Under the pieces are notes generated by a model. It made no database searches and had not been told where the DNA came from. It saw only the letters and a program-made list of their open reading frames with translations. Both the position numbers and the translations under genes were made by a program. This document shows, one piece after another, positions 3,359 through 64,000 of a DNA stretch of 64,000 bases (position 1 is the first letter of the stretch; every line of letters starts with the position of its first letter). The DNA comes from Pseudomicrostroma phylloplanum (lineage: Eukaryota > Basidiomycota > Exobasidiomycetes > Microstromatales): contig BCHS01000013.1 of assembly GCA_039545275.1 (NCBI GenBank), forward strand, positions 124,001-188,000. The letters are read 5' to 3'.

Positions 3359-4951
3359 TCAGGCCTGACCCTGCTCTGACTTCCATTGGCGAATGAGAGC
3401 CTTTCCATAGTCGCCGATGTTGGGGAAGCGGTTCACAGTGTGGATGTGACACTTTGCTGGACGTGTGTTAGTAAGGAAGACTGTAGAGAAATTGAAGGAG
3501 AGGCGGAGTGAAGAGGGTGAGTATCATCCTGACGTCTCTGGAATGCTCAGGAGGCTCTGCTCGGTTCACACTCACTGCCACAGTGGAAATCGAACTCGCA
3601 GAAGGTGACAGGACTGTGTATGCGGTAGTAGTATGGGTCCTTGTCTCCGAACTTGCCGATCCAGGCAAAGTACATCTGGTCCTCGTGCTGCTTCAGTCTA
3701 GCCAGCTGAGCCTCGAGCGGCTTGGCTGGCAGGTAGGCATTGAATGCCTTGAGTACCTCATATAGCATGGACTTTTGCTCCGGAGAGAAGGCAGAGACAG
3801 GGCAGCCCTCTGGTCGGTGGTGGAACGTGAAGAAGGTCAGAAGTGAAAGTCTGAATTTCCATCGCAACATTGCAAGGCGGGCACTCACCGAAAGGCACTG
3901 TACGATTGTCCTGTCGTGCTCCTCCCAAATGTCTCTCGTCGAAGGGATTCCAGCGGTCTTCCGCCAAACCTTCTTGCGCTGTCATACCTTCATTGAGCTG
4001 TGCTTTCTTCTGGTTCTCCGGGCTCAGACTCTGCATGAGCTTGAGTGAGTATTGCTCTTCCTCTTTGAAAAGTCGGAGACCAGCATGCGGGCCTACATCG
4101 ATGGAGTCAGGCTCAGCGCCGCTGAACGTGGGGGCAATGACCATCCTCCGTCCGACAAACATGACATTGAGACACAAGTGGTGGCCAAAGAAGCTCCAGC
4201 CCCAAGGAGCAGTCGGGGAGGGTGTTCTGATCTCGTGCTGCCCAACTTCCGGGAGGAAGAGACGGAAGTTGTACGAGTGCTTGTTGAGGACCTTGAGCCC
4301 ATTCACGAGCTCTCCCAAGAAGTGGTTGGTGAGAGTACAGCCGAGTGCCTTCTCGTAACCCTTTGGCGAGAGACAGGCTCGAAGAACATCGTGCACGGCA
4401 TCCTGTACTTCTGCGCGAGTCTCATCTAGCCGAATGCCACCTGTGTGTAGGACAAAAGAAACTCCGGTCAGCACAGCTACACCCAAAGAATACCGCTGCA
4501 GTGGTGACTCACCCGGGTTCATGTACAGCTCAGGGTTCGACCAAGCTCTAAATTCGTCATCCACGGCTACGTCTCCCTTGATGAGAGATTTCTTCTCTTC
4601 CGTGCTCAACAGGGCCAGCAGCTTGTTTGTGGCCTCCATTGCGGCCTCTACGGGAGCCCCTTCGTCCTGCTCATACTTCCACACACTGCCGTCCGGGTTG
4701 CCATCAGCGGAGAAGCCGTTGTATGGCTTCTCGAGGTTCTCGAGATCCAGGCGACTAATCAGCCATGCAGGTGCTGGCACCTGCCGGCGAGAGCCACACC
4801 AGGTGTGGGCATCGTGCGTCTCGATCCCTGCGATTCTTGGATGATCGGGCTTGGGCAGCAGAGACCGGAAGGGAATCGTAGCATCGGCACCAGCACCAGT
4901 CGGGTCGTCTTCTTGCAGAAAGCCAGAGTCGATGGGGAGTGCTGCTGTCAT
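3359..4951 (-). CDS. DUF3500 family protein
   Basis: Four exons on the minus strand (4951-4513, 4440-3889, 3809-3576, 3480-3359) give 448 residues. Intron placement restores the family's conserved blocks. 'ELYMNPGGIRLDE' spans the first junction. 'PWGWSFFGHHLCLN' lies near residue 230, followed by 'APTFSGAEPDSIDVGPHAGLRLF'. Near the C-terminus come 'RIHSPVTFCEFDFHCGIFLTN' and 'CHIHTVNRFPNIGDYGKALI'. This order is that of DUF3500, a family found in bacteria and fungi without an assigned activity. Several invariant-looking histidines (GHHL, FDFHCG, CHIH) suggest a metal site, which is inference. The ATG at 4951 follows a TTTAAA element (5019-5024). Its position between a monooxygenase and an FAH-family enzyme makes it a candidate for an unassigned catabolic step. 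Confidence 0.8.
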
Positions 4952-5943
4952 GGCGGGTATCTTGCTAAGTCAATGGTGGGATATCGTAGGGCTATGAGCC
5001 ACTACGATGCTACTATCCTTTAAACATTGGCTCGGAATGTGGGTGCAGCGGCCGCCCGGCAAAGACGGGAATGGCCGCCCCCCTCGGCGCCAAGGCGGGG
5101 AACAGTCGGCCGCCCCCACCGGCCACATCGCCGCAAGCCCGCATGTCTTCCCCACATTTTTCCCCGCGAAGCCACTCTTGGTCCGCCTTGATGCCCGCAG
5201 AAGCCCGCCCAAAATACTACAAGTCTTGTCGTTGCAGGCAAATTAGTACGGCAAGCTCAGGCAGCCAAGCCTGTCAACCTTACGCACTGCCTTGGTCTCG
5301 AAGTCGCTCACATCACATGACCTCAGCCTCACATGATGTTACTCTCACAGTCGCCACCCCAATTACCACCACGAATGTGGTGATCTCTCAAGTCGCATGG
5401 TCATGCTTCATCGCCACGAGGACACATGTGGAAGCATCTGAAACCATTTGCTGCCTCTCTTCAATTTCAGGGCGCTCGTGTTGCACGGGGCTTCCAATGC
5501 GCCCCAGACCCTGACTTGACACTACCGGGCCGAAGGAGCACTGAACGGCTCCGCCGCGACCTTGAGGGGGCTCATGGGCGAGTCTCTAGCCTTCTTGAGG
5601 GATCTCTGAGTCTGTGCATCACATCAATCAAAGGTCAAAGGGCTTAGCTCCCGCTCCCGTTCAGCTTCGCTCAGTGTTGATCAAGCTGTTTGGCCGGTAG
5701 AACTTTCCAACCCGCGGGGGACCAGTCAGTCAAGGACCAACCTGGATCTCATCGCGAATCAGACCCGGGAGTCAGCTCACAAAGTGAATCGTTCTCGCAC
5801 TGCGACGACGACTGTCATAGAGGTGACTAAGTGATATTGCGTAGCTGTTGAATGTATGGGACAGACTGATATTCCTGCTCAGGGCAAGACTCCCCCGCTC
5901 CAATCTATACATCTCCGCCTGCAAAGCCCTGCTCGCCTGCTCT
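4952..5943. promoter_or_regulatory. Promoter region of DUF3500 gene with GYGGGGAA motifs
   Basis: A gene-free 992 bp stretch. Close to the DUF3500 start it has GCGGGGAAC at 5095-5103, TTCCCCAC at 5148-5155 and TTCCCCGC at 5160-5167, and TTTAAA at 5019-5024. The right part (5240-5940) contains the 3' flank of the next minus-strand gene; nothing else was recognised. Confidence 0.45.
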
Positions 5944-13582: not shown

Positions 13583-15498
13583 ATGCTCTACCAGCCCATC
13601 GCCAGTGAGTACACATATCTGTCCCTGCTGCTGCTGCTGCTGCTCCCTGCACCGTCACTGCAACCTCGACCCCAAGCTGATCACCACCTCTCACCGCCTC
13701 ACCTCTCCACACCCAGAGTCCCAGCTCGAGTGGTATGCCTCCCTCAACCCACTCGAGCACTCCATCAGTGCTTCCAACAAGTACTTCCGTAAGACGTGAG
13801 TATCTTCACGGCCAGCCCTGATAACAAGGGGCTATCATCACTACTGTGACCGCCCGCGATAAGGCAACGAGTGCACTACTGACGTGCATATCCCCTCCCC
13901 CGTTGCTCCCCTCCAGCTCCATCATCGCAACTATCGGTCCCAAGACTATGAGCGTGGAGATGCTAGGAAACCTGCGCAAGGCCGGTATGAACATCGGTGA
14001 GTCATCAGCTGTCACGCGGCAAGGCACACTTGGCCCAAGGACATCTGCTCACCATCTGCCCTGTCGCGACGTGCTGTCCTCCCTTCCAGTCCGACTCAAT
14101 GCATCTCACGGATCTCACGAGTACTTCAAGACCGTAGTGGACAACTCCCGAGCCGCCGTCGCTGCCGCACAGGGTCGTCCTCTGGCCATTGCCCTTGACA
14201 CCAAGGGACCCGAGATGCGAACCGGTGTCATGACAAATGGCGACGACGTCAAGATCACCATCGGACACGAGTTCTACGTCACCATGGACGAAAAGTACGC
14301 AGAGAGCTGCTCTGCCGAGTACCTCTACATCGACTACAAGAACCTCGCCAAGAAGGTCGAGGTAGGAAGGATCATCTACATTGACGATGGTATCCTCGCT
14401 CTCGAGGTCATCGCCATCGAGTCTGACCTCCTGGTCAAGGTACGAGCCGTCAACAACGGTACCCTCTCCAACAAGAAGGGTGTCAACTTGCCCCTCACCG
14501 ACGTCGACCTGCCCGCCATCTCCGAGAAGGACAAGAAGGACCTGCTCTGGGCTGTCGACAACAACCTTGACATGGTCTTTGCCTCGTTCATCCGAAGGGG
14601 TTCCGATGTCCGAACCATCCGTGAGATTCTGGGAGAGAAGGGAGCTCACATCAAGATCATCTCCAAGGTCGAGAACCACCAGGGTGTCCTCAACTTCGAC
14701 GAGATTCTGCGCGAGTCGGACGGTATCATGGTTGCCCGAGGTGACCTGGGTATCGAGATCCCAGCTCCCCAGGTCTTCATGGCCCAGAAGATGATGATCG
14801 CCAAGTGCAACATTGCCGGCAAGCCATCCATCTGCGCTACCCAGATGCTCGAGTCGATGATCGTCAACAACCGACCCACCCGTGCCGAGGTGTCGGATGT
14901 AGCCAACGCCGTCCTGGACGGTGCTGACTGTGTCATGCTGTCCGGAGAGACTGCCAAGGGAGCTTACCCTCTGGAGGCTGTTCGTATGATGGCCGAGACT
15001 GCCTTCCTGGCTGAGCAGTCCATCTCCTACGTTCCCCTCTTCAACGAGATGCGCACTCTGACTCAGGTGCCCACTGAGACTTCCGAGACTGTGGCCATGG
15101 CTGCCGTCGCCGCCTCTCTCGAGCAGCAGGCACACGCCATCCTGCTCATGTCCACCTCGGGCAACACTGCCAGGCTGGTGTCCAAGTACCGCCCACGATG
15201 CCCCATCCTGACCATTACCCGTGACGAGCACACCGAGAGGGACGTGCACCTGTACCGAGGATGCTACGGCATGTTCTTCCCTTATCCTCGTCCCGCAGAC
15301 GAGTCTGGCTGGCAGAAGGATGTGGACAACCGAATCAAGTACGGACTCAGCGAGGCCCTCAGGTTGGGCATTGTTGAGAAGGGAGGAGTGTGCATCGTCC
15401 TGCAGGGCTGGAGGGGTGGAACAGGTAACACCAACTCGCTGCGCGTACTCAATGTGCCCGACGCTGCTGCCGACTTCCAGATGGAGACTCTCAAGTAA
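13583..15498 (+). CDS. CDC19: Pyruvate kinase
   Basis: Four exons (13583-13604, 13717-13795, 13917-13996, 14090-15498) give 529 residues. The introns are crowded at the 5' end. The reconstructed start runs from '[11 protein letters not shown]' to '[12 protein letters not shown]' and '[16 protein letters not shown]'. The core has '[12 protein letters not shown]', '[19 protein letters not shown]', the signature '[13 protein letters not shown]', '[34 protein letters not shown]' and the allosteric C-domain. It transfers phosphate from phosphoenolpyruvate to ADP in the cytosol, the last step of glycolysis. Metal, K+ and PEP-binding residues are visible (NASHG, RGDLG, SGETA). Length is normal for fungi. 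Codon use is strongly biased to C-ending codons, as expected for a highly expressed gene. Confidence 0.97.
13625..13645 (+). repeat. CTG microsatellite in pyruvate kinase intron 1
   Basis: About six CTG units lie inside the first intron of the pyruvate kinase gene. Confidence 0.8.
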
Positions 15499-23451: not shown

Positions 23452-26400
23452 TCATCTCTGTGGGCCATTGCCTCCGCCGCCGTAGTACGGCATCCCGCCC
23501 ATCATACCTGGAGGCGGGGGNGGCATCCCCTGTCCGCCAGGGGAGTTGCCTCCAGCAGCTCCAGAGCCGCCGCCATAGGGACCCAAGTGCTGAGGAGATC
23601 CCGCTGCACCTGGTCCAGGTCCGTAGAGCATCTGCTGGTGGAAGTAAGGCGAGTGAGGAGGCGGAGGAGGAGGTCCAGGGGGCATCCCGCGTAGGGGACC
23701 CATGCCGGGTGGCATGCCCTGTGGGCCAGGACCGCCGCCTGTCAGGTAGGAATGCTGCACGTGAGGCGGTAGGCCCATGAACTGGTGCTGCACGTGAGGT
23801 GGGAATCCGGCGAGCAGGTTGCCGAGGTTAGGGCCCGGACCTTCTCGAGCGTTGCCGCCTGCGCCGCCGCGCATCGCAGGATGGTTGTTGCCGTTCATGC
23901 CAGGAGGAGGAGGACCTTGAAGACCAGGAGGTGGGCGAGCAAGCAGACGTGGATCAAAGGGTGGTCGGCCTGTACCGCCAGGGGATTGAGCAGGCCCACC
24001 ACCATTACCAGAAAAGCCGGGAGGCATCGAGCCGAATTGCTGCATACCGCCTTGCTGCGAACCCATTCGCTGATGTTGGCCGCCACCTTGCTGGGGGCCT
24101 TGTTGCTGTTGTGGGTGATCGAAGAAACCTACACCTGGGCTTTGAGATCGGTGCTGCTGGGCACCAAAGCTCATGTTGGGACTCTGCGCCCGAGGCGGAA
24201 TGCCCATAGGAGGGGCAGGCGAAGCTCGGCCCGTGACACCTGGAGGAGGATGAGCGTGAGCATTGAACCTTGCTGCTTCGAGCCCGGGGGGAAGCCCTTG
24301 ACCTTGTTGAGGATGTCGCTGCTGTTGAGGCGAAGGAGCGCGCTGACCGCCCGAAGTGGATGCAGATGGTGAAGGCTGAGCACCTCCTGAGAGCATTGCC
24401 ATCAAGCCGGCTGCCGCTGCACTGCTGACGCCATCGCCTCCAGCTCGACCTGACGCCTGTTGGGAAGGAGTGCGGGACCCATCGCCCTTACCATTGCCAC
24501 CTCCTCCGCTTCCTCCTCCTCGAAGAAGCGCCATGATCTTCTGCATACTTTCAGCGTCGGCATCACTGGGTTTCCCGTCGCTACTTCCTCCGGTGGCCCC
24601 AGCCGGCGGAGACTTCATTGCCTCTCCACGCCGCTGCGATTGTGTTTGATCCGAAGAAGATTGCTGAGGATGGGACTGGTTCATCATCATGTTCTGGAAC
24701 AAAGCCTCCATTCCAGCGCTAGCGTTGGAAGGCGTGGAGGTCCCACCCGGGGTGGAAGCAGTCACACTGGGACTGCTGGTGGAACTGATACCTTGTGTGT
24801 GGGCCGCGAGAGCCTTCTCCTGTGCTTCCTTAGCCTTGTTTGTGGCAGCGGCGCCGTCAAAGAATCTAGCGAAGCGACTCGAGCCTCGACCTCCTGCGGG
24901 AGTAGCCGCGGCAGCTGAAGGAGTTGATGCGGCCGATGCAGAGGCAGCCGATGAGGCAGGGCCGCTGGCAGCGCCGGTCAAGCCGGGAGGGGGACCCGAT
25001 GACGCTGTAGACGGCTTGCTGTCTACAGAGTCAGCAGGCCCATCTGTAGCCTCATCCGCCTTCTTTTGCGAGACCGAAGTCGCTTCCGATGGCTTCGAGA
25101 GACCAGGTGGTGCAGATGGCCGAGCAGCGGGCGCGGGCTGCGAAGTGGCTTCGCGATCGGTACCCGTGCCATCGCCGCTCTCTTTCTCCCTCGCTCTCCT
25201 CTCTCGCTCCTTCATCTCCCTCTTGAAAGCCTGTATGCTGTCTTCACCTGCGAGCGGTGTAGCGTGGATCTCGGATCCCTGGAAAGCGTCGAACTTGAGC
25301 TTGCCTCTTTCCTTCTTCTCGCCTTGCGCTGGGTGCGAGGGAGTGGAAGCATTGTCGTCCATCCAGCTTGGCGACTCTGCTTCCTCGGCCATCCATGCAG
25401 GGAAAGCGGCAGATCCACTTGCTCCTCCTCTCCTGGAGTCCTCGCCCCTTGCGCTTCTAGGTCCCACTGCTCCCCTCCCGCCAATCGCTTCAGAGTTTCG
25501 CTTGGGCAGACCAGCGGCTCCCGGACCTCTTCTCCAGTCGGAAGCGGCATCGGCGAGTGCGCCAGCTCGAACCATCTTTCGCTCAGCATCAGGTGAGCGG
25601 GGGACCGTTTCCCACTCGCCATCCTCCTCTTCTCCGCCTCCTCCCCTTGAGCTGGCACCACCATCTTCGCGTCGGTGGTCACCTCGGTTATTGAAGTCTT
25701 TGCCCATTCCACCGCTACGGGGCATTCGAATTGGCTTGCCAGCCTCATCGAAGGCGACGGGCTCTCGCTGTTCTCGGTCGCGGCCGTACGAGGACATTCG
25801 TCCCATTGGGAACTGGGGCAAGAAGGCAGCAGAGCCGAGGTTAGCTACATTCGCTTGTCAAGGACAGGCCATCCAAGATCAAACTTACCCTGCCTTCGCC
25901 GTCTTTGCCTGCTGGCTTGAAGGTGCCACTTGCAGAGACCTGACCGAACGGGTTCTTGCCTGTAAGAGAGAAGCGAGAATTTGCTCCGCGTGGATCTGGA
26001 ATACGCAGGATCTTTCATCAGCTCTCGAGCTCGCTGAGAATGTCCTTCAGCGATGACTCACCGTTTGCATACCTCGGAGCAGCGCCGTCGCCCCCTCCTT
26101 CTCGGTCCTCGTATCGCTTGTTGTAGGGCGCTCTGCCCTCTCCTCTGTCACCGCCTCTGTCTCCTCTATCGTGTCGTTCCGGGCGATCTCCACCCCGCTC
26201 TGGCCTCTCTCCAGGAGGTCCGCCCTCCCTCCTCCTCACTCCCTGGAAGCCGGGTAGGTAGCCGTCCCGGCCATTAGCATGACTCGACTGCTGAGCATCG
26301 CCTCCTTTGCTGTGAGAGAATTCGCCCATTGGGCCGGATGCATCATCGTGTTGCATACGTCCATAATGTCTGCCATGGCCACCTGCTTCTCTGTCGCCTC

Positions 26401-36974: not shown

Positions 36975-39118
36975 CTACTTTGGGATCCACTGAGAAGATC
37001 GGACCGCAGAGCACGGCAAGGTCAAATGTCAGCGATGGGTGTCTGCTTTTCTGGGGAGTCCTCTCCCACATCTGGCTATTACTCACTACTTTCAGAGCTC
37101 CATCACTCCCCAAAGTGGCCACCTCGCCACTTCCACTCTCTCCGCTCTCCTCATCCAGCCAGCCAGCCCACCCCACACCGCCCGCATGGGCGTTCCTCTT
37201 CTCAACTTTGCTCATCGGCCTCTCCGTGCTCCACACATACACGCTACAGTCCAAGCCGCCACTGATGGCTTTTTTCCCATCGGCAGAGAATTTCAGTGAC
37301 GTGACGCGGGAGGTGTGGAAGACCCACTGGGAGAACTTGAGGTCAAGAGAGGGGAGGGACACGACGGGAATCTTGCCTGTCGAGTCGGCGCTGGCGAGGT
37401 AGGCCTCGTCGCGCGAGATGGCAAGGGCGGTGACGGCGGAGCGGTTGCGCTCGCTCACTTGTGGAGCCTTGTCGAGGGCTGCCGCCGAGTAAAGGTAGAC
37501 CTTACCTTGCTCGGAGCCGATGGCGAGGTAGTTTGCCGAGGCAAAGAGGGCTGAAGGGGATGGAGTGGGGAGGCTGGAGAGGGGTGTGCTGAAGGAGCTG
37601 GATCCGGCGGCAAGTACTACTACAGAGGTCGATGTGAGGACGTAGACGTCGCCTTTGGGGGACACGCTGAGTCCCTTCGCGGCCGAAGGCAAGGGCAGCG
37701 ATAGCGAGCTGAGGGGAAGGCAAAGGATGCCTGTCGTCAGCACTGTCGCCTTCACAGCCGTCTGTTCACACCGTTATGACCACTCACTCTGTCTTGCCTC
37801 CCACAACCCGCCTCAAAACATCGTCTAGTCCCACGGCATACACTTCCTCGGGCTTCCCTTCGGCCGACTGCAAGAAGGTCACGACAGGCCCTCCGATCTT
37901 GAAGCCTGCGACTGTGCTGACTTGCCAGTCTGCCTCGCCCGCCTTGCTGCGCTTATACCGGTAGACGTTTCCATCCCAAGAAGCGGCCAAAACCTCCTTA
38001 GCGCTGACCCGAACAGCAGTAGTGATGCCCTTGGTAGGGTTCAAGTACCTCCCCTTGGTCGAGCCCGGCTGAGTAACGTCGAAGGTGACAAATTCCCCAA
38101 GAAGATTGAGAGCCACACCAGTCTCGCCGTTCGCGACGACGACTGCCACGAGTTGATCGCCCGCATTGGCATGTCCGGCCTTGAGGTCCCACTCGCCGAT
38201 CTTTTCTCCTGCAGGGACACTCCACAGCTTTGCCACGCCGTCTGCTGCCACGCTAACCAGCTTCGAATCGTCGGATCCCACGAAGGCGACGTCAAAGACG
38301 GTTCCCCCGCCGCCCGCCGAGTCGATTGTGCTGACCACTTCGCCCGAAGAGCCGTCGTAGAGGATCACCTTGGAGTCGGAGGCACATGACGCAAAGTACT
38401 TGCCCGAGGGGGAGTACACCAGGGATTGCAGGAACCGCGTATGCGAAGAGAGGGTCGAGGTGTACTGTCCGAGTAGCAACGCATGTAATGCTGCATCAGT
38501 ACCAGTACTTGCCTCTGTCGTTCGTGTATAATCTCAGCAGTCTCAGATCAGGCTCACCTTGTATGGTACCCCGGCAAAGAGCACGACCTTGGTATCGTCT
38601 CCACCACTGACGGCCTTGAAAGGCCTGGCGGATTTGAGTGCAACACAGCTGACCACTTTCCCATGTCCTCCCAGCTCACCGCAAGAGCTCCCACTATCAA
38701 CCAGAAAGAAAGCTCCAAACTTCTCCCTCCCTTCGCCCACGACAGCGATTCGCTTGCTCTCTCCGTCCCATGCCAGATCTCGCACGACGCCGGAGAAGGG
38801 ACGATACTCGGCCTTTAGGATCTGCTCTGAGCCGAGGATGTCCCAGATGCGGACAAGGCCAGAGGTATCGGCGGATGCGATGTAGGCGCCCGAGGGGGAG
38901 AAGCGGGCGACGCTGACTGGGTGTGGGTGCTGGGAGTAGATGATGGTGGCAGAGGGACTGTTGAGTCCAGGTAGGGAGGTCACGACGACGGATCTGCCGT
39001 TGCAATAGGCCAGACGGTCGCCCTTTGGGGAGAGGGAGATCTTGGCCGCCTGCCCGCGCACAGTGGTCGGATTGGGCGGGATGACTGCGCCAAGGTGGAG
39101 CGTAGGAGGAGCGGTCAT
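36975..39118 (-). CDS. AIP1: WD40 actin-interacting protein 1
   Basis: Four exons (39118-38558, 38464-37788, 37708-37087, 36989-36975) give 624 residues, the usual length of Aip1. Repeated WD-type blades are visible: 'VSVARFSPSGAYIASADTSGLVRIWD', 'VRDLAWDGESKRIAVVGEGRE', 'LQSLVYSPSGKYFASCASDSKVILYDG', 'KLVSVAADGVAKLWSV', 'VTSLKFSADGKKAISGGLDCSVYVWS'. Two seven-bladed propellers fold around such repeats. The protein enhances cofilin-driven actin filament disassembly in cortical patches. The last exon is only 15 bases: splicing it gives a C-terminus 'GALKVWIPK', closing the last blade; without it the frame reads into unrelated sequence. Homologues end in a comparable way, so the micro-exon is well supported. 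Confidence 0.88.
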
Positions 39119-47877: not shown

Positions 47878-50271
47878 TCACTGCGTCCGTGATTGGGCCG
47901 ATTCTGACCGATCCCCGCCCCGCTCTGCCCTCTCCGCATCCGCCGCCGCCCCTTCCGCTAGGCCCTGCTCCCCTGCTGTTGCTGGTAGATCGAGCAGATG
48001 ACCCATACGTTCAATCTTGGTCCGAAGGTAGCGCTCCAATTCCACGCCGCGCGCCGCTGCACCGCCTATGAGCGTAGCTCCCGACGAGCGGAGCATGTGT
48101 TGCTGATAGTCGTCGCTGTCTCCGTCCTCTTCTTCTTCGTCTTCTTCGTAGTGGCTGCTCTCGGACTCCTCTTGGCCCCCGCCCTCCACTCCCTCAAAGT
48201 CCGAGCCCTGATGCCGCCGGCCGAAATGGGATGCCTCATCGTCGTCCTCTGCTTGAGAAAGAATGGAGCGGGACATACCCTCGTCGGAAAGCTGAGAGGA
48301 AGCGAGAGCAGCCACTCGTCGATCTCGCTTTGGGCCGGCGGCAGTCTTTCTGAGCCTTGATGACTTCTTCTTGCCCTTCCGAGCCGACGGGCTCTTGCCG
48401 TCCTTTGAGCGCTTCACCTCCTGGGTCCAAGCTCTGGGGACCATACCCACCCGTTCCTTGACCTTGATGCCCTCGGCCTCTAGCGCTTCCATCTTCTCTG
48501 GGTTGTTGGTCAGCAGACGACAGCTGGACACGCCCAGATCCTCCAAGATCGCTCCGGCTGCTGCGTAGCTCCTCGCATCAGGGAGATGGCCCAGGAGGAC
48601 ATTGGCACTGACGGTATCGTGGCCCATGTCTTGCAAGTTGTAAGCCATTAGCTTGTCCAACAGTCCAATGCCTCGCCCCTCTTGTCTTAGGTAGACGACA
48701 ACGCCACGAGGCAGACGAGGCCTCTGAGGGTCGCGAGAAGCATCGCGTGAGGGTTCGGAACCGGAGCCACTTTGAAGGATGAGGCGCAGCGCTTCATCGA
48801 GCTGCTCACCACAGTCGCAGCGTTGTGAACCGATCGTCTCGCCGGTGTAACACTCCGAATGGATTCTCACTAGAGGTGCCTCCCAGTCCACATCGCCCTC
48901 GCTAGCGTGTGCAGGGTGCTCCCTGCCCCGTCGTATACCGGCGCTCGCGACTTGGCAATGTGGGCCCAGTCTGCCCACGTACGCGCCGCGAACGATTCGC
49001 TCCATTTCAGTCTCTTCAGAACTCCAGACTTCATCGAGCGTTCGACTACGGAGCGAGGGCGGGCCAGCAGGCTTCGACAATTCGTCTACGCTGACGTCTG
49101 GCTCATTTTGGGCGGGGTCGATGACCAAGGCAAGGTGCTCTTTGTTGTCTCGATTGTTGCGGTAGAGATGACAGAAGATTTCGCCATGAGGGGTAGGTAT
49201 CCTCGTGCGGGCGTAGCAGCGGATCTGAAGTGGCGGCGGGCGCACGATGGAGGACAGACGAGAAAGTTGAGGTACGGCAGTGGCGGGTGAAGCTGACAGT
49301 GGCCCTTGGTTGAGTTCCCTCGGCGTGGAGGGGAGAGCTGGTGTAGTCGGAGCGGAGGCGATAGCTTTCCTCTCTGAGAGAGCCTGCTGAATGAGTGCAG
49401 CAGTGCCTTGCGGACGCTGATCACGTTGACCCTCGTCTCCGGGAGGTGCAGTAGGAGCGCTAGTACCCGGTGCGGAGGAAGAGCCCTCCTCCTGGCTTGC
49501 ACGAATGCCTACAGATGAGGCCACTTGAGCCTCATGAGCAGCCTCTACTTTGCGGTCCTGACCTGCCTGGTTCGATTCTCGACTTTGAGTCTCCCTTTGC
49601 CTGAGTGCTTCTGCACGCAGCCTCTTCGCCTCCTCTTCAAGCTTGATGCGAACGCTACGAGGCGCTTGCCGGCTGGCGTACATGGCCCTTTCCGAGTCGG
49701 TCACCTCGGGTACAGGCTCGATATCTCTGATCAGCTCCTCGGCTTGAAGCTCGTTGTCATCCATGTCGCAATTGGCATAGGACCCAAAGCTTGTGGACTG
49801 AGAGCGAGAGGTGCGGGTTCTCTCCTTCGGCGCAGCGGGTGCCGGAGGTTGGTGGGACTGAGCTGCCTTGACAGCCTGCCTTTGGCTTGCTGGCATCTGA
49901 CGAGACGGACCATGAGCCGTCTCTCCATAGGTATGATGGAAGTGGTGTCTTGTGACCTGGGGTCCAGAGGAGAGACTGGCTGCGAGAATGATTGGGTCGA
50001 TGGGTGGTCTTCGCAGCGCGCTTAGTGTCGCAAGAGGTCGACGCCTTCCTGCAACGTGCTGTCCAGAAGCATGACTAGACGAAGGAGAAGATGATGAAGC
50101 TCCAGAATGCGGGAAAGAGGAAGGCATGGAAGTCAAGAGATCGAGGAGCTCCTTCTCCGAGGTAGCATTGGCAGCATGGTGCTGATGGAACCCGCCTACC
50201 GGTGATCTGGCGGCCATTGCTGGGCTCGAAGGTGAGGATGAAGATGCCCGACGGGGATGAGTGTCGGCCAT
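47878..50271 (-). CDS. RIB1: GTP cyclohydrolase II with long extensions
   Basis: A single exon of 797 residues. The catalytic domain spans about residues 340-620. '[19 protein letters not shown]' opens it; '[26 protein letters not shown]' gives three zinc-binding Cys. '[31 protein letters not shown]' is the catalytic Arg/Glu loop; '[25 protein letters not shown]' follows. It hydrolyses GTP in the first step of riboflavin synthesis. Typical enzymes have 200-350 residues; here about 330 disordered N-terminal residues and 170 acidic C-terminal residues are added. The C-terminus has a highly acidic run and a Lys/Arg segment that could be a nuclear localisation signal (inference). An internal start near residue 330 would still make a full enzyme. 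Confidence 0.87.
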
Positions 50272-50791
50272 GGCTCCAGGCAGCTATACGAGGACGCCGC
50301 TACGGTCACGAAGAAACAAATGAAGAGGCGAGTGAAGGAGCGATTCGGCAATGCGGCAATGCGGAATGGTCGAAGGGGGCGGAGGCCGTGGATTCAGGCG
50401 TCGGGTGTAGTGGTCTGCGAAGCTGACTCTTCCCGGCCTCCGCTTTGCCGTGCTTGCCTGCTTCCGTTCCGGTCTGGCTCAAGTCACATGTGATTCAAAC
50501 TTGCGCCTCGCAACTCATCCAACACCTCGCTCGCCCCGCCCCCCGCCGCCGCCTCCTTCCCTCTACTCTGCCATCCCCACACCATCGCCCACGCTCTTCG
50601 TACTCCCTCCCGAGTTGGCACCCCAGATACACACGCCTCGGTCACCTTTGAAGACACAGAGTCGCACAAACGGGTACCTCCTCGACACTCTTCGTTCACT
50701 AGAGGACCGCTGCTGACTGCACTTCCCTGCAAAGGATATTCCTAACACCACCTTCCACTCGCACGCACGCACGCATACACACACCTGCATC
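50272..50791. promoter_or_regulatory. Divergent promoter, RIB1 / importin alpha
   Basis: A 520 bp region between divergent genes. It holds pyrimidine-rich tracts and an ACGC/AC repeat at 50764-50785 just before the importin alpha ATG. No TATA box identified. Confidence 0.45.
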
Positions 50792-52665
50792 ATGTCGACC
50801 ACTCGTCGTCAAGATGCCTATAAGAACAAGGGGCAGTTCAAGGCAGATGAGCTCCGTCGAAGGAGAGAGGAGGCTCAGGTAGAGATCAGGAAGCAGAAGA
50901 GGGAGGAGAGTATGGCAAAGAGGAGGAATCTCGACGCAGCCGCCCTCAGCGATGCAGAGACCGACGATGAAGAGGCAGTCGGAGCCATGCTTGACAAGGA
51001 CGTGAGTTGACTTTTGCGAAAGAGCGACGGAGACATTACTGTGTATGCTGACGAATTCGGCGCTGACGCACCCCATCGCCCCCTTACAGCTCTCTGAGCA
51101 ACTGCCGATCATGATCCAAGGTGTCATGTCCGAGAACCTCGACGCTCAGCTTGACTGCACCACCAAGTTCAGGAAGCTCTTGTCCAAGGAGAGGAGTCCT
51201 CCCATTGACAAGGTCATCGGATGCGGTGTCGTACCACGATTTGTCGAGTTCCTTCGTAGCCCACACAGCCCCCTCCAGGTGAGTAGGCAGGCCGAGACAG
51301 ATCTTGACGCTTTGAGGGGTAGCCGATGCTGACTTCGTCTCCATCGACTTCTGCTTCACAGTTCGAAGCTGCGTGGGCCCTGACCAACATCGCTTCGGGA
51401 ACATCCGACCACACTCAAGTCGTGATCAGCGAGGGTGCCGTCCCCATCTTCATTGAGCTCCTATCTTCGCAGGTCTTTGATGTTCGGGAGCAGGCAGTGT
51501 GGGCATTGGGCAACATCGCAGGTGACAGCCCCAAGTGCCGAGACTTTGTTCTGGGAGCAGGTGCCATGCGACCTCTTATCGCCCTGCTCAACGAGAACCA
51601 TAGGCTCAGTATGCTGCGCAACGCAACCTGGACACTGAGCAACTTCTGCAGAGGAAAGAACCCCCAACCCGAGTGGGAGCTGGTGAGTAGTAGTGGCACA
51701 CAACTTTCCTGGTCTTGGATTACTTCTGACGTCCTTGCCTCCACTTATGCCGTTGCTGATAGGTTGCCCCGGCCCTCACGGTTTTGACGAAGCTTATCTA
51801 CTCCTCGGACGATGAGGTGCTCATCGACGCTTGCTGGGCTGTCTCCTACCTCTCGGATGGAGCTAATGAGAAAATTCAGGCTGTCATCGAGGCAGGCCTC
51901 TGCCGTCGCCTTGTCGATCTGCTTGTCCACAACTCGACAGCAGTCCAGACCCCCGCGCTTCGATCGGTCGGCAACATCGTCACAGGTGACGACCTGCAGA
52001 CACAAGTGGTGATTGCCTCTGGCGCTCTGCCCCCGCTGCTCTCTCTGCTGTCTTCTCCCAAGGACGGCATCAAGAAGGAGGCTTGCTGGACTATCTCCAA
52101 CGTCACTGCCGGCTCTAGCCACCAGATTCAGGCCGTCATTGACAACAACATCATCCCGCCTCTGATCGACATTCTCGCCCACGCTGATTTCAAGACGCGG
52201 AAGGAGGCCTGCTGGGCCATCTCAAACGCCACTTCTGGAGGTCTGAACGAACCCAGCCAGATTCGCTATCTCGTCAGCCAGGGATGCATCAAGCCTCTGT
52301 GCGACATCCTCAAGTCGATGGACAACCGAATCATTCAGGTTGCCCTCGACGGACTGGAAAACATTCTCAAGGTCGGTGACCAAGACAAGGAGGCCAACGG
52401 AGCGGGAGCTGTGAACCAGTACGCCCTCCACATCGAAGAGTGCGGTGGAATGGTAACAATCCACCAGCTGCAACACCACGAGAATCTGGAGATCTACAAG
52501 AAGTGCTTCTTCATCATGGACAAGTACTTCCCTGACGAGGAGGATGCTGGAGCGGACACCGGAGTCGATGCGCCTCAAGTGGATGCATCGGGAGCATTCG
52601 CTTTCCAGCCTACTCTGGCAGCACCCAGCGGTGGCTTCAGCTTCGCCTCCAACGGCCAGCAGTAA
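50792..52665 (+). CDS. SRP1: Importin subunit alpha
   Basis: Four exons (50792-51001, 51090-51278, 51362-51682, 51763-52665) give 540 residues. The N-terminal importin-beta-binding domain is basic ([25 protein letters not shown]). Ten armadillo repeats follow, with the diagnostic '[27 protein letters not shown]', '[18 protein letters not shown]', '[15 protein letters not shown]', '[16 protein letters not shown]', '[15 protein letters not shown]' and '[16 protein letters not shown]' segments. W and N residues of the NLS-binding groove are visible. A C-terminal acidic stretch ([12 protein letters not shown]) binds the exportin. It carries classical NLS cargo with importin beta. Confidence 0.96.
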
Positions 52666-53856: not shown

Positions 53857-54874
53857 TTACCAAGGGTTGTTTCGGACAGTTCGCTTCCAAGGGGCGTTGC
53901 GGACGGTTCGCTCCTCGAGGTCCTCAGCGTCCTCACGCTTCCAGGGAGCGTTGCGGACAGTGCGCTCCTCGAGTGACTCCTCCTCACGCTTCCAAGGAGC
54001 GTTTCGGACGGTGCGCTCCTCGAGAGACTCCTCCTCGCGCTTCCAGGGAGCATTGCGAACGGTTCGCTCCTCAACGGTCTCGTCTCGCTTCCAAGGAGCG
54101 TTGCGGACTCTTCGCTCCTCGAGAGACTCCTCCTCGCGCTTCCAGGGGGTGTTGCGGACTCTTCGCTCCTCGATNNNNNNNNNNNNNNNNNNNNNNNNNN
54201 NNNNNNNNNNNNNNNNNNNNNNNNNNNNNNNNNNNNNNNNNNNNNNNNNNNNNNNNNNNNNNNNNNNNNNNNNNNNNNNNNNNNNNNNNNNNNNNNNNNN
54301 NNNNNNNNNNNNNNNNNNNNNNNNNNNNNNNNNNNNNNNNNNNNNNNNNNNNNNNNNNNNNNNNNNNNNNNNNNNNNNNNNNNNNNNNNNNNNNNNNNNN
54401 NNNNNNNNNNNNNNNNNNNNNNNNNNNNNNNNNNNNNNNNNNNNNNNNNNNNNNNNNNNNNNNNGCGTTGCGGACTCTTCGCTCCTCGATGTCTTCGTCG
54501 CGCTTCCAGGGAGCGTTGCGGACTCTTCGCTCCTCGATGTCCTCGTCGCGCTTCCATGGTGCGTTGCGGACGGTTCGCTTCCAGGGAGCGTTTCGAACAG
54601 TCCGGTCCTCGAGGGTCTCTTCCTCACGCTTCCAAGGTGCGTTGCGGACGGTGCGCTCCTCAACGGCAGCTCGCTCGGCAAGAGGAGCGTCGGACTGGTG
54701 GTGTGCGAGAAGGGAGCGAAAGGTAAGGGTAAGTAAAGAGCCGATTGAGAGGGGGAACAGGGGCGGATGAGGTGCGGCAGTGTCGAGGTGGATCGGGTTA
54801 CTCACGACGGGGGCGGCAGCAACACCGAGAGCGGCGCAGAGGGCCAGGGCAGTAGCAGCAGTGATGAACTTCAT
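53857..54874 (-). CDS. Secreted Kex2-processed repeat precursor of TVRNAPW-type heptapeptides
   Basis: Exon 1 (54874-54806) codes a hydrophobic signal peptide (starting MKFITAATALALCAALG); the 111 bp intron has GTGAGT/CCAG borders. Exon 2 starts at 54694 and ends with TAA at 53857. After 'SDAPLAERAAVEER' the protein is tandem units: a heptapeptide [T/R]VRNAPW, then KR, then an acidic spacer such as EEESLEER or DEDIEER. Twelve units are visible (8 T-type, 4 R-type, variants TPW and NPW) plus those lost in the gap at 54175-54464. The KR pairs are kexin sites; units 3 and 12 lack the spacer, so the mature peptide probably starts at T. It is not a farnesylated CaaX pheromone. Secreted signalling or antimicrobial peptide is inferred; no known family recognised. 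Confidence 0.82.
53876..54662 (-). repeat. Tandem 48-51 bp coding repeat of the heptapeptide precursor
   Basis: Units of 48-51 bp (27 bp where the spacer is missing) alternate on both sides of the N gap. Nucleotide identity between units is very high, which points to recent tandem duplication or unequal crossover. The R-type units flank the gap on both sides. Confidence 0.9.
54175..54464. other. Assembly gap (290 N) inside repeat
   Basis: All bases are N. The right side ends with the first two bases of an Ala codon and the left side resumes at a codon start, so the true gap must be 1 modulo 3. 290 is 2 modulo 3, so the stated length is not exact. Confidence 0.95.
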
Positions 54875-55019: not shown

Positions 55020-55026
55020 TTATATA
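55020..55026 (-). promoter_or_regulatory. TATA box of peptide precursor gene
   Basis: TATATAA on the minus strand, about 146 bp before the ATG at 54874. This predicts a transcript start roughly 110-120 bp before the ATG. Confidence 0.55.
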
Positions 55027-57667: not shown

Positions 57668-59386
57668 TCACTTGCGGTAGCCCGCCTCCTCCAGGGCCTC
57701 CTTCAAGTTCTTGAGAAGGTAGTCGATGTCACCCCTCTCCTTGTTCACAACGGACTCGGACATGGTGCCAATTCGGAAGTACTGTTGGGAAGGTCGCATC
57801 GGAAGACGGGAGAGACCACGATCAGCACGCGTACTTGGGTGGTTTTACTCGACCGAACCAGTGCCGGATGTTACTCACCTCGTCCTTGCACTCCTTGTGC
57901 AAACCAGCAGCTACAACGATCTTTCGTGCTACCATCTTGGGCAACACGTCGGGCGCCTTCAAGCCTTCTGGGTACCGAACAGCGGTCATACCGTGAGCGC
58001 CGTCTTTGCTCGGGTCTGCGACCAGCTGCTTCAGGCCGAGGTCCTTGACAAAGTTCTTGACCTGATCAGACACGGCAATGTGCTGCGCCCATCGGTCCTC
58101 GATGGACGTCTTGCCCTTTGTGATTGTGGTCAAGGAGGCGTGGAGGGCGTAGATCAAGTTCGTGGGCGGTGTTGCAAAGTAAGCACCAGTACCAGACTCG
58201 TATGCCTTCATGACAGGCAGCCACTTGTTCCAACTGGAGAAGTAGCTGTTGGGCTTCGTCTTGCGGTTCTCGTATGCCTTGATGGCCTTCTTGCTAGCTG
58301 CCAGGAGCATCAGTCCGGGTGGGCATCCGATTCCCTTCTGCGAGGCCGTCAGAACAACGTCGATGCCCCACGCGTCCATGCGGATCTCTTCCGAAGCGAC
58401 GGAGCAGACACCGTCCAGGACCAAGATTGTCTCGGGTGAGACTCGCTTGACGAGCTCACCAAGAGCTTTGGCATCGGTCAGCACGCCGGTAGAGGTATCG
58501 ACGTGTGTGAAGGTCAGCACCTTGTACTTCTTCTTCTTGAGCTCAGCCTCGACTTCCTCCAGGCTAGGCTTCGATCCGATTGGTGCCTTGATCTGAGTGA
58601 CTTTTGAGCCATATACCTCGAGACATTCGGCGAATGAATCGCCGAAGTAGCCAGAGTTGAGGACGAGCGCCTCCTCTCCCGGCTCAATGACGTTGGACGC
58701 TACGTGATCCCAGCCGAGAGTTCCAGAGCCGGCAGTGATGATTGGCTGAGACTCGGGAGCCAGAATGACCTCTCGGAACATTCGGATGCAGTCGCCAAGG
58801 ACGGGCACAAAGTCTGGAGAGACATGTGACATTGAGGGGTGGGCGTTGGCGAGAAGAACATCGTCGGCCACCTCAACTGGTCCTGGGATGAGCAGGAGCT
58901 GTGAAGGGAAGGGTGTGCAGAGGAATGTTCAGTTTGATTTCAAGATGGCGAGCAAAAGATATGCATGTACACCTCGCGAATATGACTAACCTTGTGAGGG
59001 GCTTGCTTAAAGTCTGATTGGCTCATTTCGTATCGAAGAGTGCTAGGGAGATTGGCTGAGCTGTGAAAGTTGAGATGACCGCCGATATTGGCAAGGCGTC
59101 GGGCAGGAGTAGAAATGGACGGTAGACCCGAAGTCGAAGGTAGCGTCGGTGTCGTTGACGTTGGGGTTTCAGTCGTGCGAGGGCCGTAGATTGGTTCACG
59201 GGCAGGCGAGTTTGATGGGGCAGACGAGGATTTGCCGGACGTCATCAGTGGGCGATGGAGGTAAGAGGCCGATTGACAGGATGTTGAGAAGGTGCGCAAG
59301 GAAGCGGCAGCAGCGGTAAAGGGAGAGATCGTGGATCGAGGCAGCGTTTGCGCGAGTGTGGAGTAGGGAAACAGGAGGGGAGGCAT
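57668..59386 (-). CDS. AGX1: Alanine-glyoxylate aminotransferase, two possible starts
   Basis: Three exons: a first exon to 58991, then 58898-57879 and 57781-57668. From the short start (ATG 59026, MSQSDFKQAPHK) it has 389 residues, the usual length; from the far ATG (59386) it has 509. The core contains 'LLLIPGPVEVADDVLL', 'AGSGTLGWDHVASNVI' and 'THVDTSTGVL'. The PLP lysine lies in 'LTASQKGIGCPPGL'; the C-terminus rebuilds 'YFRIGTMSESVVNKERGDIDYLL'. It converts glyoxylate and alanine (or serine and pyruvate) to glycine. The upstream 120 residues are Ser/Thr/Arg-rich with 'SLRTFSTSCQSASYLHRP', resembling a mitochondrial presequence. No PTS1 (ends YRK). Alternative start use could give two locations. 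Confidence 0.9.
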
Positions 59387-61301: not shown

Positions 61302-63275
61302 TCAATCGACATCTATGCCCAGCTTTCTCAGAAGATCACGCCTATCAGCCTCCCTCTCATAGTAGCGTCGCCTCTTCTCCTCCCTGAAGCTGACTCCTTC
61401 TTCACGCTGGTGATCCCAGCCAAGAGGCTCCGCGTCGAATTCAGGTCCCTCAGTCACTTCACTGATTCTCTGAGCGAGTCTCTGGATGAGATTCTGCTCT
61501 TCTGGACCGCATCTCAGCCCAAGCTTGAAAAGCTCCACCTCACCGATGAAGCGAGCTTCTCCAGGCTTGGGATGGACGAACGTAGGTCCAAGCTGGTGCG
61601 CGTGCTGAGGAGTCTGGGCAGATACACCCAAGATCAGCTCCAGAGCTGAACGGCGGTGATCCTCCGTAGGAAGATCGTCTAGCGTGCGCAGAGCCCTCTC
61701 GAAACCTGCTCGGCGCTCGCCGTACGGGTGCTGGTCTGTGACCGGAGAAAGGAGTGAGCGAAGCTCCTGATCTGTCGCGAGGAGCTCGAACTGCTTTCCT
61801 GTCAATGGCTTCGGGTCGTTACGTCTCATCGGGTCGAGAAAGAGCATCGGGTCTGGCTCTGGTGGCCAGGCCAATTCCTTCAGAGGTCGGAGCAAAGGCG
61901 AAGATGGCTGATAGAGCGACCGACTCGGCTTCGACGACGTCGAATCGTCGACTGTTTCAGTCGCAATTTGCAATGCGCCATCTTCCAGGGGGTGAGAAAG
62001 TTCTGCTGGAGTAGGGAGCGCAGTGATCTCATTCGCCCCATTGCTAGTCGAGCTGACATCTTGGATCATGTTGCGTTTCCTCTGCTGTGCTTCTGCCAGG
62101 CCAGGTTGTACTTCGACACGTGTAAGGTAGTCGTTTCGAACAATGAAGCGGATGACCTGAGCCACTGCGTTGACATGCTGTCCGATGTCTTGCTTCAGAA
62201 GAGCATGCAACAGGTTCTTTGGCTCAAAGGGATTCTGGACTGGATTGCGAGGACGCGGACGCCGAGACGAAGGTAGGTGAGAACTGCTTTGCGGCTTCGA
62301 GATCCCCAATGGCTGAGAGTGAGACTGTCGGCAAAGATCACCGTAGTTGCAGCGGCCCTGAAGGAAGTAACGACAGACGTTGCCTGCAGCAGGTGAGCTG
62401 GCAAGATTCCCAGTTTCTTCCATCGACGGTGCGTCCGGGGCTACCTTCTTGATAGGCTCTTCCGACGGGGCATCTGAAGTGGACCCGTCCTCTGAATCGG
62501 AGGCATCAGAGGAGTCAAGCTCGGACGAGGACTCATCCTCCTCCTCGCCGTCTGGACGCAAAGAGCTCTGTTCGGGGTCGCCTGTTCTTGCGACCTTTGG
62601 TCGGGGTCCTTCGTGATCCGTGGCTACAATGTCCTTCGCTTGTTGCTCACTCGCACCAGCCTCTGGTTCTTGCCTCCGTTTGTTTTGCTGTGTAGACCGT
62701 CTGCCCGACCAGCCTTCCTGTTCCTTCTGCTGTACCACCTTGTCGCTCGGCCACCTCTTCTTTCGCTCTGCAATCCATTGGTCCACAAGCTCAGGCGTCG
62801 AGAGAGCTATGTTCAGCCCTGGAATGGTGTTTAGAGCTTTGGCCTCCTCTTCCTCGAGTCTACCACCATGATGTTGGCGCTTCGCCCTCCTCGCGGTTTC
62901 TTTGCGCTCTTCCACGAGCAGCGGGTCTTTACGGTCCACTTCTTCCTTGCCTCCCGGAGGGTATACGAGATGCCTATCTGCCTTGTGCAGCATCAAGGCG
63001 AGGTCAGAGTTGGTCTGAAAGGTGCACGGAGTCACGGAGGAGGATGCTGTTTCGGGTGTGTAGCCGCAGACGAGTCGACCGCCTGGGACCATCCCATTGT
63101 CAGGTTGATGCAGGGAAGATCTCTCAGAGAAGGGTCTCCCACCCCGGTGAGAATGACCTCGCTGGCTGCCGCCATAGCCACCACGCCCGCTGGTGCCGTT
63201 TGCACGCCCATCGCTTGGGTTGTACGATGGGCCCACAGCAGGCCAGGCTCCGTGACGGTGAGGTGGGAGTGACAT
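61302..63275 (-). CDS. NUFIP1/Rsa1-like CCCH zinc-finger protein
   Basis: A single exon of 657 residues from the ATG at 63275; the open frame continues upstream but overlaps the divergent gene, so the longer form is rejected. After a Gly/Arg-rich N-terminus comes 'NTIPGLNIALSTPELVDQWIAERKKRWPSDKVV', which matches the NUFIP1 conserved domain. A later 'CRYFLQGRCNYGDLCRQSH' is a CCCH-type zinc finger. The region between is acidic and Ser-rich. The C-terminus (RLAQRISEV to RREADRRDLLRKLGIDVD) is helical. NUFIP1/Rsa1 proteins act with R2TP in assembly of box C/D snoRNPs in the nucleus. The family call is based on the two motifs, with no full alignment. Confidence 0.72.
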   Translation of the reverse strand: MSLPPHRHGAWPAVGPSYNPSDGRANGTSGRGGYGGSQRGHSHRGGRPFSERSSLHQPDNGMVPGGRLVCGYTPETASSSVTPCTFQTNSDLALMLHKADRHLVYPPGGKEEVDRKDPLLVEERKETARRAKRQHHGGRLEEEEAKALNTIPGLNIALSTPELVDQWIAERKKRWPSDKVVQQKEQEGWSGRRSTQQNKRRQEPEAGASEQQAKDIVATDHEGPRPKVARTGDPEQSSLRPDGEEEDESSSELDSSDASDSEDGSTSDAPSEEPIKKVAPDAPSMEETGNLASSPAAGNVCRYFLQGRCNYGDLCRQSHSQPLGISKPQSSSHLPSSRRPRPRNPVQNPFEPKNLLHALLKQDIGQHVNAVAQVIRFIVRNDYLTRVEVQPGLAEAQQRKRNMIQDVSSTSNGANEITALPTPAELSHPLEDGALQIATETVDDSTSSKPSRSLYQPSSPLLRPLKELAWPPEPDPMLFLDPMRRNDPKPLTGKQFELLATDQELRSLLSPVTDQHPYGERRAGFERALRTLDDLPTEDHRRSALELILGVSAQTPQHAHQLGPTFVHPKPGEARFIGEVELFKLGLRCGPEEQNLIQRLAQRISEVTEGPEFDAEPLGWDHQREEGVSFREEKRRRYYEREADRRDLLRKLGIDVD

Positions 63276-63546
63276 CTGTGTGGCTCTTGCGGTCAGCAAG
63301 ATACTCAGATGGCGTGAGGCGTACAGTACTGGGCACACACGGAAGGGGCAGAAATCTCCAGGCGGGGAGGAATTCCAACTCCACGCGCGGAAGTAGGAAC
63401 AGCCCTGATGCTCCCGCACCATCCTCGGCCCTCGGGAACACATCCATACTGCGATCCCAACGGCCTCGATATCCCACAGCGTACGACGCCCTGGAGGCAC
63501 CTTCCGCGGCTCTACACATACTCTACCAGGTGCTACTCCGGCACAC

Positions 63547-64000
63547 ATGGCCTCTAAAGAACCCTCGGGTCGTGGCGGGGGTCGCGGGCAGAGATCCAGC
63601 GGTACGAACAACTACGCAAGTACTGTTGCGACCCAATCGGATGTTGTGAAATACAGGGGAAAGTACAAGGAGCTCAAAGCAAAAGTCAAAGAGATTGAGA
63701 TGGTAAGTAGCAGATCTTTGATAGCTGCATGGATCACAGGGAAGAGAGAGTCGACTGCCCTGTACGACAGAAGGCATAGGGGTCTTGCATAGATCGCCGC
63801 GGGCTTCCTGGAGGGTAACAACGGCTCTTGAGGTCTATACTGACCCTTTTGCTTCGATCGTATTACAGGAGAACGATGCCATTCACTTGAAGACACTCAA
63901 CGTGAAGCGGACAATACAGAGGATGCGTCTAGAGAGAGCGTGAGTCTTCACAAGCCTGGAGATGTGTGTTGTACTTGCTGATCACCAACCCCTTGCCCAT
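63547..64000 (+). CDS. Probable INO80-complex subunit Iec3-like protein (5' part only)
   Basis: Exon 1 (63547-63702) and exon 2 (63869-63939, GTGAGT donor) are inside the window; the rest runs past the right edge. The visible product begins with a Gly/Arg/Ser-rich leader, then a coiled coil 'KYRGKYKELKAKVKEIEMENDAIHLKTLNVKRTIQRMRLERA'. The combination of a long basic coiled coil at the N-terminus resembles the Iec3 subunit of the INO80 chromatin remodeller. Other coiled-coil proteins could look the same, so the call is tentative. Divergent from the NUFIP1-like gene with about 270 bp between the two ATGs. Confidence 0.4.

Follow-up and report, generated by a model that had tools for sequence, protein, structure and literature searches.

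A probable kexin-processed precursor of repeated [T/R]VRNAPW peptides in a genome of the Ustilaginomycotina

The gene at positions 53857-54874 (minus strand) of the window, the 64,000-nucleotide stretch of DNA analysed here (bases 124001-188000 of contig 13; genome 17.08 Mb in 20 contigs; window G+C 58%), probably encodes a kexin-processed precursor that gives rise to linear, secreted [T/R]VRNAPW, a probable signal or interaction peptide. We put the probability of this reading as a whole at about 0.68. A sequence-only reading had already proposed a secreted, multi-copy precursor cut by kexin, and the proposal is supported by the kexin homologue that the genome encodes and by cores bounded by KR and LxxR-type sites. 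In the mechanism we envisage, the precursor would enter the secretory pathway via its signal peptide, and in the late Golgi kexin would cut after the KR behind each core; cutting at the [LIV]E[ED]R ahead of most cores would be slower or only partial. A Kex1-type carboxypeptidase would then trim the KR, and many linear, cationic, Trp-ending copies of [T/R]VRNAPW would be released together with acidic spacer peptides; VRNAPW would come from copies with Arg at position 1, and uncut 14-16-mers may come along. Outside the cell the peptide would then most likely act as a signal or in interactions, toward own cells, mates or neighbouring organisms.

By the sequence criteria that could be checked, the gene is a well-formed KEP and would work like one. 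The methods passages of PMC6339444 define KEPs by at least three similar fragments between KR, RR or KK and by repeats amounting to at least 15% of the protein. Here 12 cores are visible, 10 of them followed by KR, the complete cores (11 × 7 residues) make up 38% of the 204 visible residues, and a kexin is encoded in the same genome. KEPs are common and diverse: Umemura counts 7878 of them across 1345 of 1461 strains, and 2560 of these lack a homologue. Being an orphan is thus nothing unusual for a KEP, and the present gene belongs to a known kind of fungal precursor, with a peptide to which the searches gave no relative. It offers a clean array at what is, as far as searched, a single locus, alongside one kexin match in the genome and clear target masses.

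Gene anatomy and the repeat array

The coordinates first assigned to the feature proved exact: on the minus strand the ATG lies at 54874 and the TAA ends at 53857. The gene is a probable two-exon gene with the following parts.

55021..55026, minus strand: TATA-box-like TATATA, 152 bases 5′ of the ATG (motif match only)
54806..54874, minus strand: exon 1, signal-peptide-like N-terminus MKFITAATALALCAALGVAAAPV (read directly; signal peptide judged by eye)
54695..54805, minus strand: probable 111-base intron, GTGAGT...CACCAG, pyrimidine-rich in its 3′ half (predicted from splice signals)
53857..54694, minus strand: exon 2, with the short pro-region SDAPLAERAAVEER, the repeat array and the TAA stop; 12 cores visible
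54465..54694, minus strand: pro-region and 5′ array, with three TVRNAPW, one RVRNAPW and one truncated RVRN
54175..54464, no strand: assembly gap of 290 N within the array, left unfilled
53857..54174, minus strand: 3′ array cores RVRNTPW, RVRNAPW, four TVRNAPW and TVRNNPW-stop
53857..54174, minus strand: 3′ array spacers EEESLEER (three), DETVEER, EDAEDLEER and a gap-cut one ending in IEER

By eye, MKFITAATALALCAALGVAAAPV reads as a hydrophobic stretch followed by Ala-X-Ala, and a pyrimidine-rich leader lies downstream of the TATATA motif. The intron probably separates the signal peptide from the repeats. Since its 111 bases are a multiple of three and free of stops, the frame stays open if it is retained, so that splicing is likely from the signals but not forced. 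At face value the 290 N of the gap set the flanking parts of the array out of frame with each other, and we treat this length as the assembler's estimate. The array frame is open and repeat-consistent on either side, and about 5-6 more units of 48-51 bases would fit into the gap if its length were correct. Elsewhere in the window, a single N lies at 23521 inside an 801-codon frame (23455-25857, minus strand) that has no Pfam match.

Across the visible array the core consensus is [T/R]VRN[A/T/N]PW. The earlier count of 12 or more copies holds, with 11 complete cores and one cut by the gap (seven TVRNAPW, two RVRNAPW, one RVRNTPW, one TVRNNPW and one truncated RVRN). Two parts of the earlier description apply to most copies rather than all. 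KR follows 10 of the 12 cores; of the remaining two, the last core runs into the stop codon and the other is truncated by the gap. Leaving the first core aside, nine of the other 11 have an acidic spacer before them (gap-cut in one case), and two lie directly behind KR, where the core stands alone. The idea that the acidic spacers offset the basic cores and sites is borne out by a net charge, counted over K, R, D and E, of +1 over the 183 visible residues after residue 21.

The array is not a chance product: when all six frames of the window were scanned, this was the only frame of at least 60 residues in which a 4-mer was common to at least four KR-, RR- or KK-bounded fragments. Searched genome-wide, the pattern V-R-N-A-P-W-K-R (which three of the 12 visible copies are unable to match) has nine exact coding copies, all at this locus, and the reversed pattern has none. 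Over the seven core codons of the 11 complete copies, pS is 0.51 and pN 0.075 (ratio 0.146); for the VRNAPW portion alone the ratio is 0.076, and the Pro and Trp of the core are invariant. This large excess of synonymous over replacement changes supports selection, as a descriptive comparison, short of a formal test, among copies related by descent.

Cleavage sites and processing enzymes

One P_proprotein match was found genome-wide; it lies in a 1051-codon open frame whose product has yeast kexin as its best match in the PDB (E 5e-139). In alignment to yeast kexin it keeps the DDGLD, DDxHGTRC, SCSWGPxDDGR, GNGG and HGGTSAAAP stretches, which we take to hold the catalytic Asp, His and Ser, the oxyanion Asn and the acidic S1/S2 residues. 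The kexin gene (contig 1, 517500-524500; L023) is a single open frame without introns, 1023 codons from the first Met, and its product has a long, acidic, low-complexity C-terminal tail. The genome also has one DPPIV_N match, to a DPPIV-type protease, and 13 stretches matching S10 carboxypeptidases, which we grouped into eight places. Three of these were compared with the PDB; two had yeast Kex1 as best match and one was carboxypeptidase Y-like, and at L035 the Kex1 match scored 96.6 bits versus 92.6 bits for carboxypeptidase Y. A Kex1-type carboxypeptidase step is thus plausible, with several candidate genes for it and none pinned.

KR directly precedes the core in only two of the 12 copies. 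The sequences before the 10 spaced cores (the pro-region, eight complete spacers and the gap-cut one) have the ending [L/I/V]-E-[E/D]-R in common, the last four residues being LEER in four cases, IEER in three, VEER in two and LEDR in one; these copies share descent, so that neither the fixed motif nor the pN/pS value is a set of independent counts. The distance from motif to core is constant, with complete spacers varying from 7 to 9 residues, and the P4 codons are CTC, ATC and GTT, which means that the aliphatic character is kept and not one codon. According to the passages of PMC8528282 drawn on here, kexin has Arg at P1 and Leu or another aliphatic residue at P4, with LxxR as an expanded motif, and at P2 of Kex2 Glu is one of the leading alternatives; PMC9769878 reports some KEP products apparently cut after a single Arg. 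In the light of these data we favour taking the end of the spacer for a putative second, weaker kexin site that fits LxxR. Such a site would provide a route to the N-terminus of the heptapeptide, and the pattern is new here.

The heptapeptide proposed by the sequence-only reading survives as the likely product, but its N-terminus would be set by KR in two of the 12 copies and otherwise by a non-canonical cut at [LIV]E[ED]R. Because 10 of the 12 N-termini depend on that cut, VRNAPW and acidic 14-16-mers are possible products as well. Arg occupies position 1 in four of the 12 copies and creates an RR site before VRN, where VRNAPW is a possible product. Kexin's acidic stretches favour Lys or Arg at P2, so a site with Glu or Asp at P2 should be weak, in which case the acidic 14-16-mers could be the main product; with no cutting at the weak site, most products would be acidic 14-16-mers ending in TVRNAPW. 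The computed [M+H]+ values are 843.447 for TVRNAPW, 898.501 for RVRNAPW, 742.400 for VRNAPW and 1844.877 for EEESLEERTVRNAPW. Two further processing routes were dropped: trimming by Ste13, since an XA or XP dipeptide follows none of the 10 visible KR sites, and release of an NAPW tetrapeptide through cleavage at R-[TR]-V-R, where P2 is Val and which has no separate support. Kexin is able to take a basic P4.

The sites can be assembled into a two-site kexin code, in which KR behind and a weak [LIV]E[ED]R before most cores would frame the peptide, a Thr/Arg switch would turn some junctions into RR, one transcript would set a fixed ligand ratio, and the Trp-ending product would belong to a kind of signal common across basidiomycetes. 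We offer this fuller scheme tentatively and doubt that all of it holds. If it were true, the mixture of TVRNAPW, RVRNAPW, VRNAPW and extended forms would shift with kexin activity. The fixed LxxR motif makes for a concrete test of kexin at non-dibasic sites in natural KEPs (substrate type EEESLEERTVRNAPWKR).

Alternative readings, genomic surroundings and relatives

The genes identified on either side of the precursor include the following.

47881-50283: GTP cyclohydrolase II
51763-52662: Arm-repeat protein
57825-58928: class-V aminotransferase
61305-63611: NUFIP1/CCCH protein

RING-IBR, cation efflux and polysaccharide deacetylase genes are also among the neighbours. Two other frames of the set match IBB, which suggests that the Arm-repeat protein is importin alpha. 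In the same window, a frame of the uncharacterised DUF3500 family lies at 3761-4969 (minus strand, E 1.2e-56), and three of the 87 frames at about 38000-64000 of the window match CoA-transferase family III (best E 1e-26).

Several other accounts of the array were weighed against the linear peptide precursor. Kexin might cut at KR and RR alone, so that acidic 14-16-mers of the EEESLEERTVRNAPW type would be formed along with VRNAPW from the RR copies and few TVRNAPW, the constant part being the C-terminal VRNAPW. Kexin stretches like those of yeast Kex2, the four RR junctions before VRN and the two cores directly behind KR are in line with such cutting, as is the C. cinerea supernatant, which in the account given in PMC9769878 held short GPPAPSW and acidic-extended DDDPEGPPAPSW forms of one peptide. 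Purely canonical cutting, however, gives no reason for aliphatic-E-[ED]-R at a fixed distance in 10 of 10 cases, unless by plain descent from one unit, and we consider it unlikely. An array that is non-functional or untranslated, and perhaps decaying, would agree with the out-of-frame gap length and with the deviating RVRNTPW and final TVRNNPW; but the open, repeat-consistent frame on both gap sides, the dominance of synonymous changes and the presence of a TATA-like box and intron signals make this account extremely improbable.

Repellent peptides are hydrophobic, and the cores here, 6-7 residues long, cationic and containing Pro, are unlike such a hydrophobic, fibril-forming repeat. A structural role at the cell surface, as for the repeat peptides of U. 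maydis Rep1 (repellent), is for this reason quite improbable, even though Rep1 comes from the same subphylum and from a kexin-processed repeat precursor, and its peptides appear in passages of PMC8528282 as amyloid-like fibrils on hyphae. A modified cyclic peptide, that is, a dikaritin-type RiPP matured by UstY oxidases, is suggested by a precursor layout equal to the ustiloxin-type KEP layout and by Umemura's report that DUF3328 genes accompany 22% of KEP genes. Against it, UstYa gave no match genome-wide (in a search run without a positive control), none among 20 large window frames and none in the best 25 of 33 families for 87 frames of about 38-64 kb, the other eight families having one member each at E no better than 0.00028. 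UstYa, P450 and methyltransferase were likewise absent from the families listed for the window frames examined (these include at least 89 of 131 frames that have 85 or more residues and extend past base 38000; short exons could escape the check). The identified neighbours look like housekeeping genes, and the core is without the Tyr of ustiloxin-type cores (EDYXI motif, as excerpted from PMC6339444), which leaves the dikaritin reading very improbable. Membership of either class, dikaritin or repellent, lacks support.

The favoured precursor of linear [T/R]VRNAPW stands alone so far as the databases go. Its core had been called unfamiliar, and the protein-database searches agree, with no homologue and no cross-species conservation seen: the precursor with the gap entered as X drew 2967 candidates and the 105-residue 3′ part 202, none at E ≤ 10 in either case, and the 3′ part had no PDB match at E ≤ 1. 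The scoring was calibrated on 48 random KEP-like decoys, built with 4 to 15 copies and 0 to 3 core changes and scored by phmmer under the database size of the searches. When the gapped query was used and the filters were off, all 48 decoys reached E ≤ 10 and 46 reached E ≤ 1e-3, the two weaker ones having three core changes. The scoring step would therefore see close relatives; the calibration applies to this step alone, with the exact 5-residue word filter and the length limits lying outside it and the decoys sharing KR and acidic spacers by design. Distant, unannotated or mis-predicted relatives could escape the database searches.

Within the genome, neither exact VRNAPWKR coding copies nor the protein search revealed further arrays. 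A looser paired W-KR pattern matched seven times here and twice, singly, elsewhere; with one match in the control, the two are a chance number and were rejected as further arrays. For the strings TVRNAPW and VRNAPW, the only match located in open-access main texts was the Cex binding domain of Cellulomonas fimi, a coincidence.

The host was placed through the pyruvate kinase frame at 13825-15495, among whose best named matches are Sympodiomycopsis kandeliae (84%), Jaminaea rosea (82%) and Ceraceosorus species (76-80%). Of the 8000 rows scored for this frame, the 120 listed include none marked as the protein of the window itself. In a tree of 19 rows it belongs with a five-row set that includes Jaminaea and Sympodiomycopsis (100/98 support). 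The 5.8S rRNA, tried for the same purpose, gave no match. By this one gene the host would lie in Ustilaginomycotina, near Jaminaea and Sympodiomycopsis, presumably in class Exobasidiomycetes, order Microstromatales. No dedicated study of such peptides in Exobasidiomycetes near these two genera is among the papers listed for this lineage; relatives may be covered by the KEP surveys PMC6339444 and PMC7329392.

Comparison with known peptide systems

Yeast MFalpha1 resembles the precursor in its signal peptide, several copies, KR sites and acidic spacers, and its first site, SLDKR, is similar to SLEER here. The two differ in the Ste13 dipeptide, XA or XP, that follows KR in MFalpha1 and is absent here; without the Ste13 signature, membership of the ascomycete alpha-type pheromones fails. 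Ste2 (PF02116) has no match in the genome in a search run without a positive control. The claim that a CaaX motif is missing is confirmed, as the precursor ends in TVRNNPW-stop and the core is without Cys, and membership of the basidiomycete lipopeptide (CaaX) pheromones fails for lack of that C-terminus. Two stretches matching an STE3-type pheromone receptor lie on contig 6 (361200-362291), so an ordinary lipopeptide pheromone system is probably present beside this precursor. Basidiomycetes, in the wording taken from PMC6339444, use a-type mating pheromones only, yet carry alpha-factor-like precursors of unknown use.

Rep1 of U. maydis is likewise a kexin-processed repeat protein from Ustilaginomycotina, but the present cores are short and charged; the ustiloxin- and phomopsin-type dikaritins have the same KEP architecture, but no UstY gene was found in the searches above and the core has no Tyr. 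The earlier comparison with Cryptococcus Qsp1 stands in one respect, the secreted peptide (NFGAPGGAYPW, as then quoted) also ending in Pro-Trp, but the Trp-ending mushroom KEP peptides of PMC9769878 are closer. In passages of PMC7537855, Qsp1 matures extracellularly through the serine protease Pqp1 and acts via the transporter Opt1; they make no mention of kexin processing of many copies, which is what we propose here. OPT genes are represented in the genome by 14 matched stretches.

The mushroom peptides offer the nearest parallels. Lentinula and Pleurotus KEP peptides ending in -AADW, seen by mass spectrometry, likewise derive from basidiomycete precursors that carry many copies of a core with Trp at its C-terminus; their core sequence is another one, and Pleurotus has Ste13 spacers (PMC9769878). 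The same source, in the sections used here, reports QYKAPSW and QMRPPSW (490115) on expression in Pichia, and GPPAPSW with DDDPEGPPAPSW (447393) from C. cinerea itself. These too are heptapeptides ending in Trp from basidiomycete kexin-processed precursors; position 3 is basic (K/R) in two of the three and is Arg here, and GPPAPSW also occurred in a form extended by acidic residues at its N-terminus, a pair comparable to the heptapeptide and the possible acidic 14-16-mers here. The precursors differ in that 490115 uses RR and Ste13 dipeptides, against KR and [LIV]E[ED]R here, and in that the 447393 peptides stem from a non-repetitive C-terminus, against a repeat array here. As to function, those sections record no visible phenotype for six C. 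cinerea KEP knockouts in axenic growth and the persistence of KEP peptides in kex knockouts, and they favour KEP roles toward the biotic environment. By analogy, the knockouts would speak against an essential own-cell signal and, in that fungus, against dependence on one kexin. Aligned by eye and free of gaps, TVRNAPW shares the basic third residue and the final Trp with QMRPPSW and QYKAPSW, which is a resemblance over seven residues and not homology; a C-terminal Trp recurs in basidiomycete KEP peptides, as far as PMC9769878 was drawn on.
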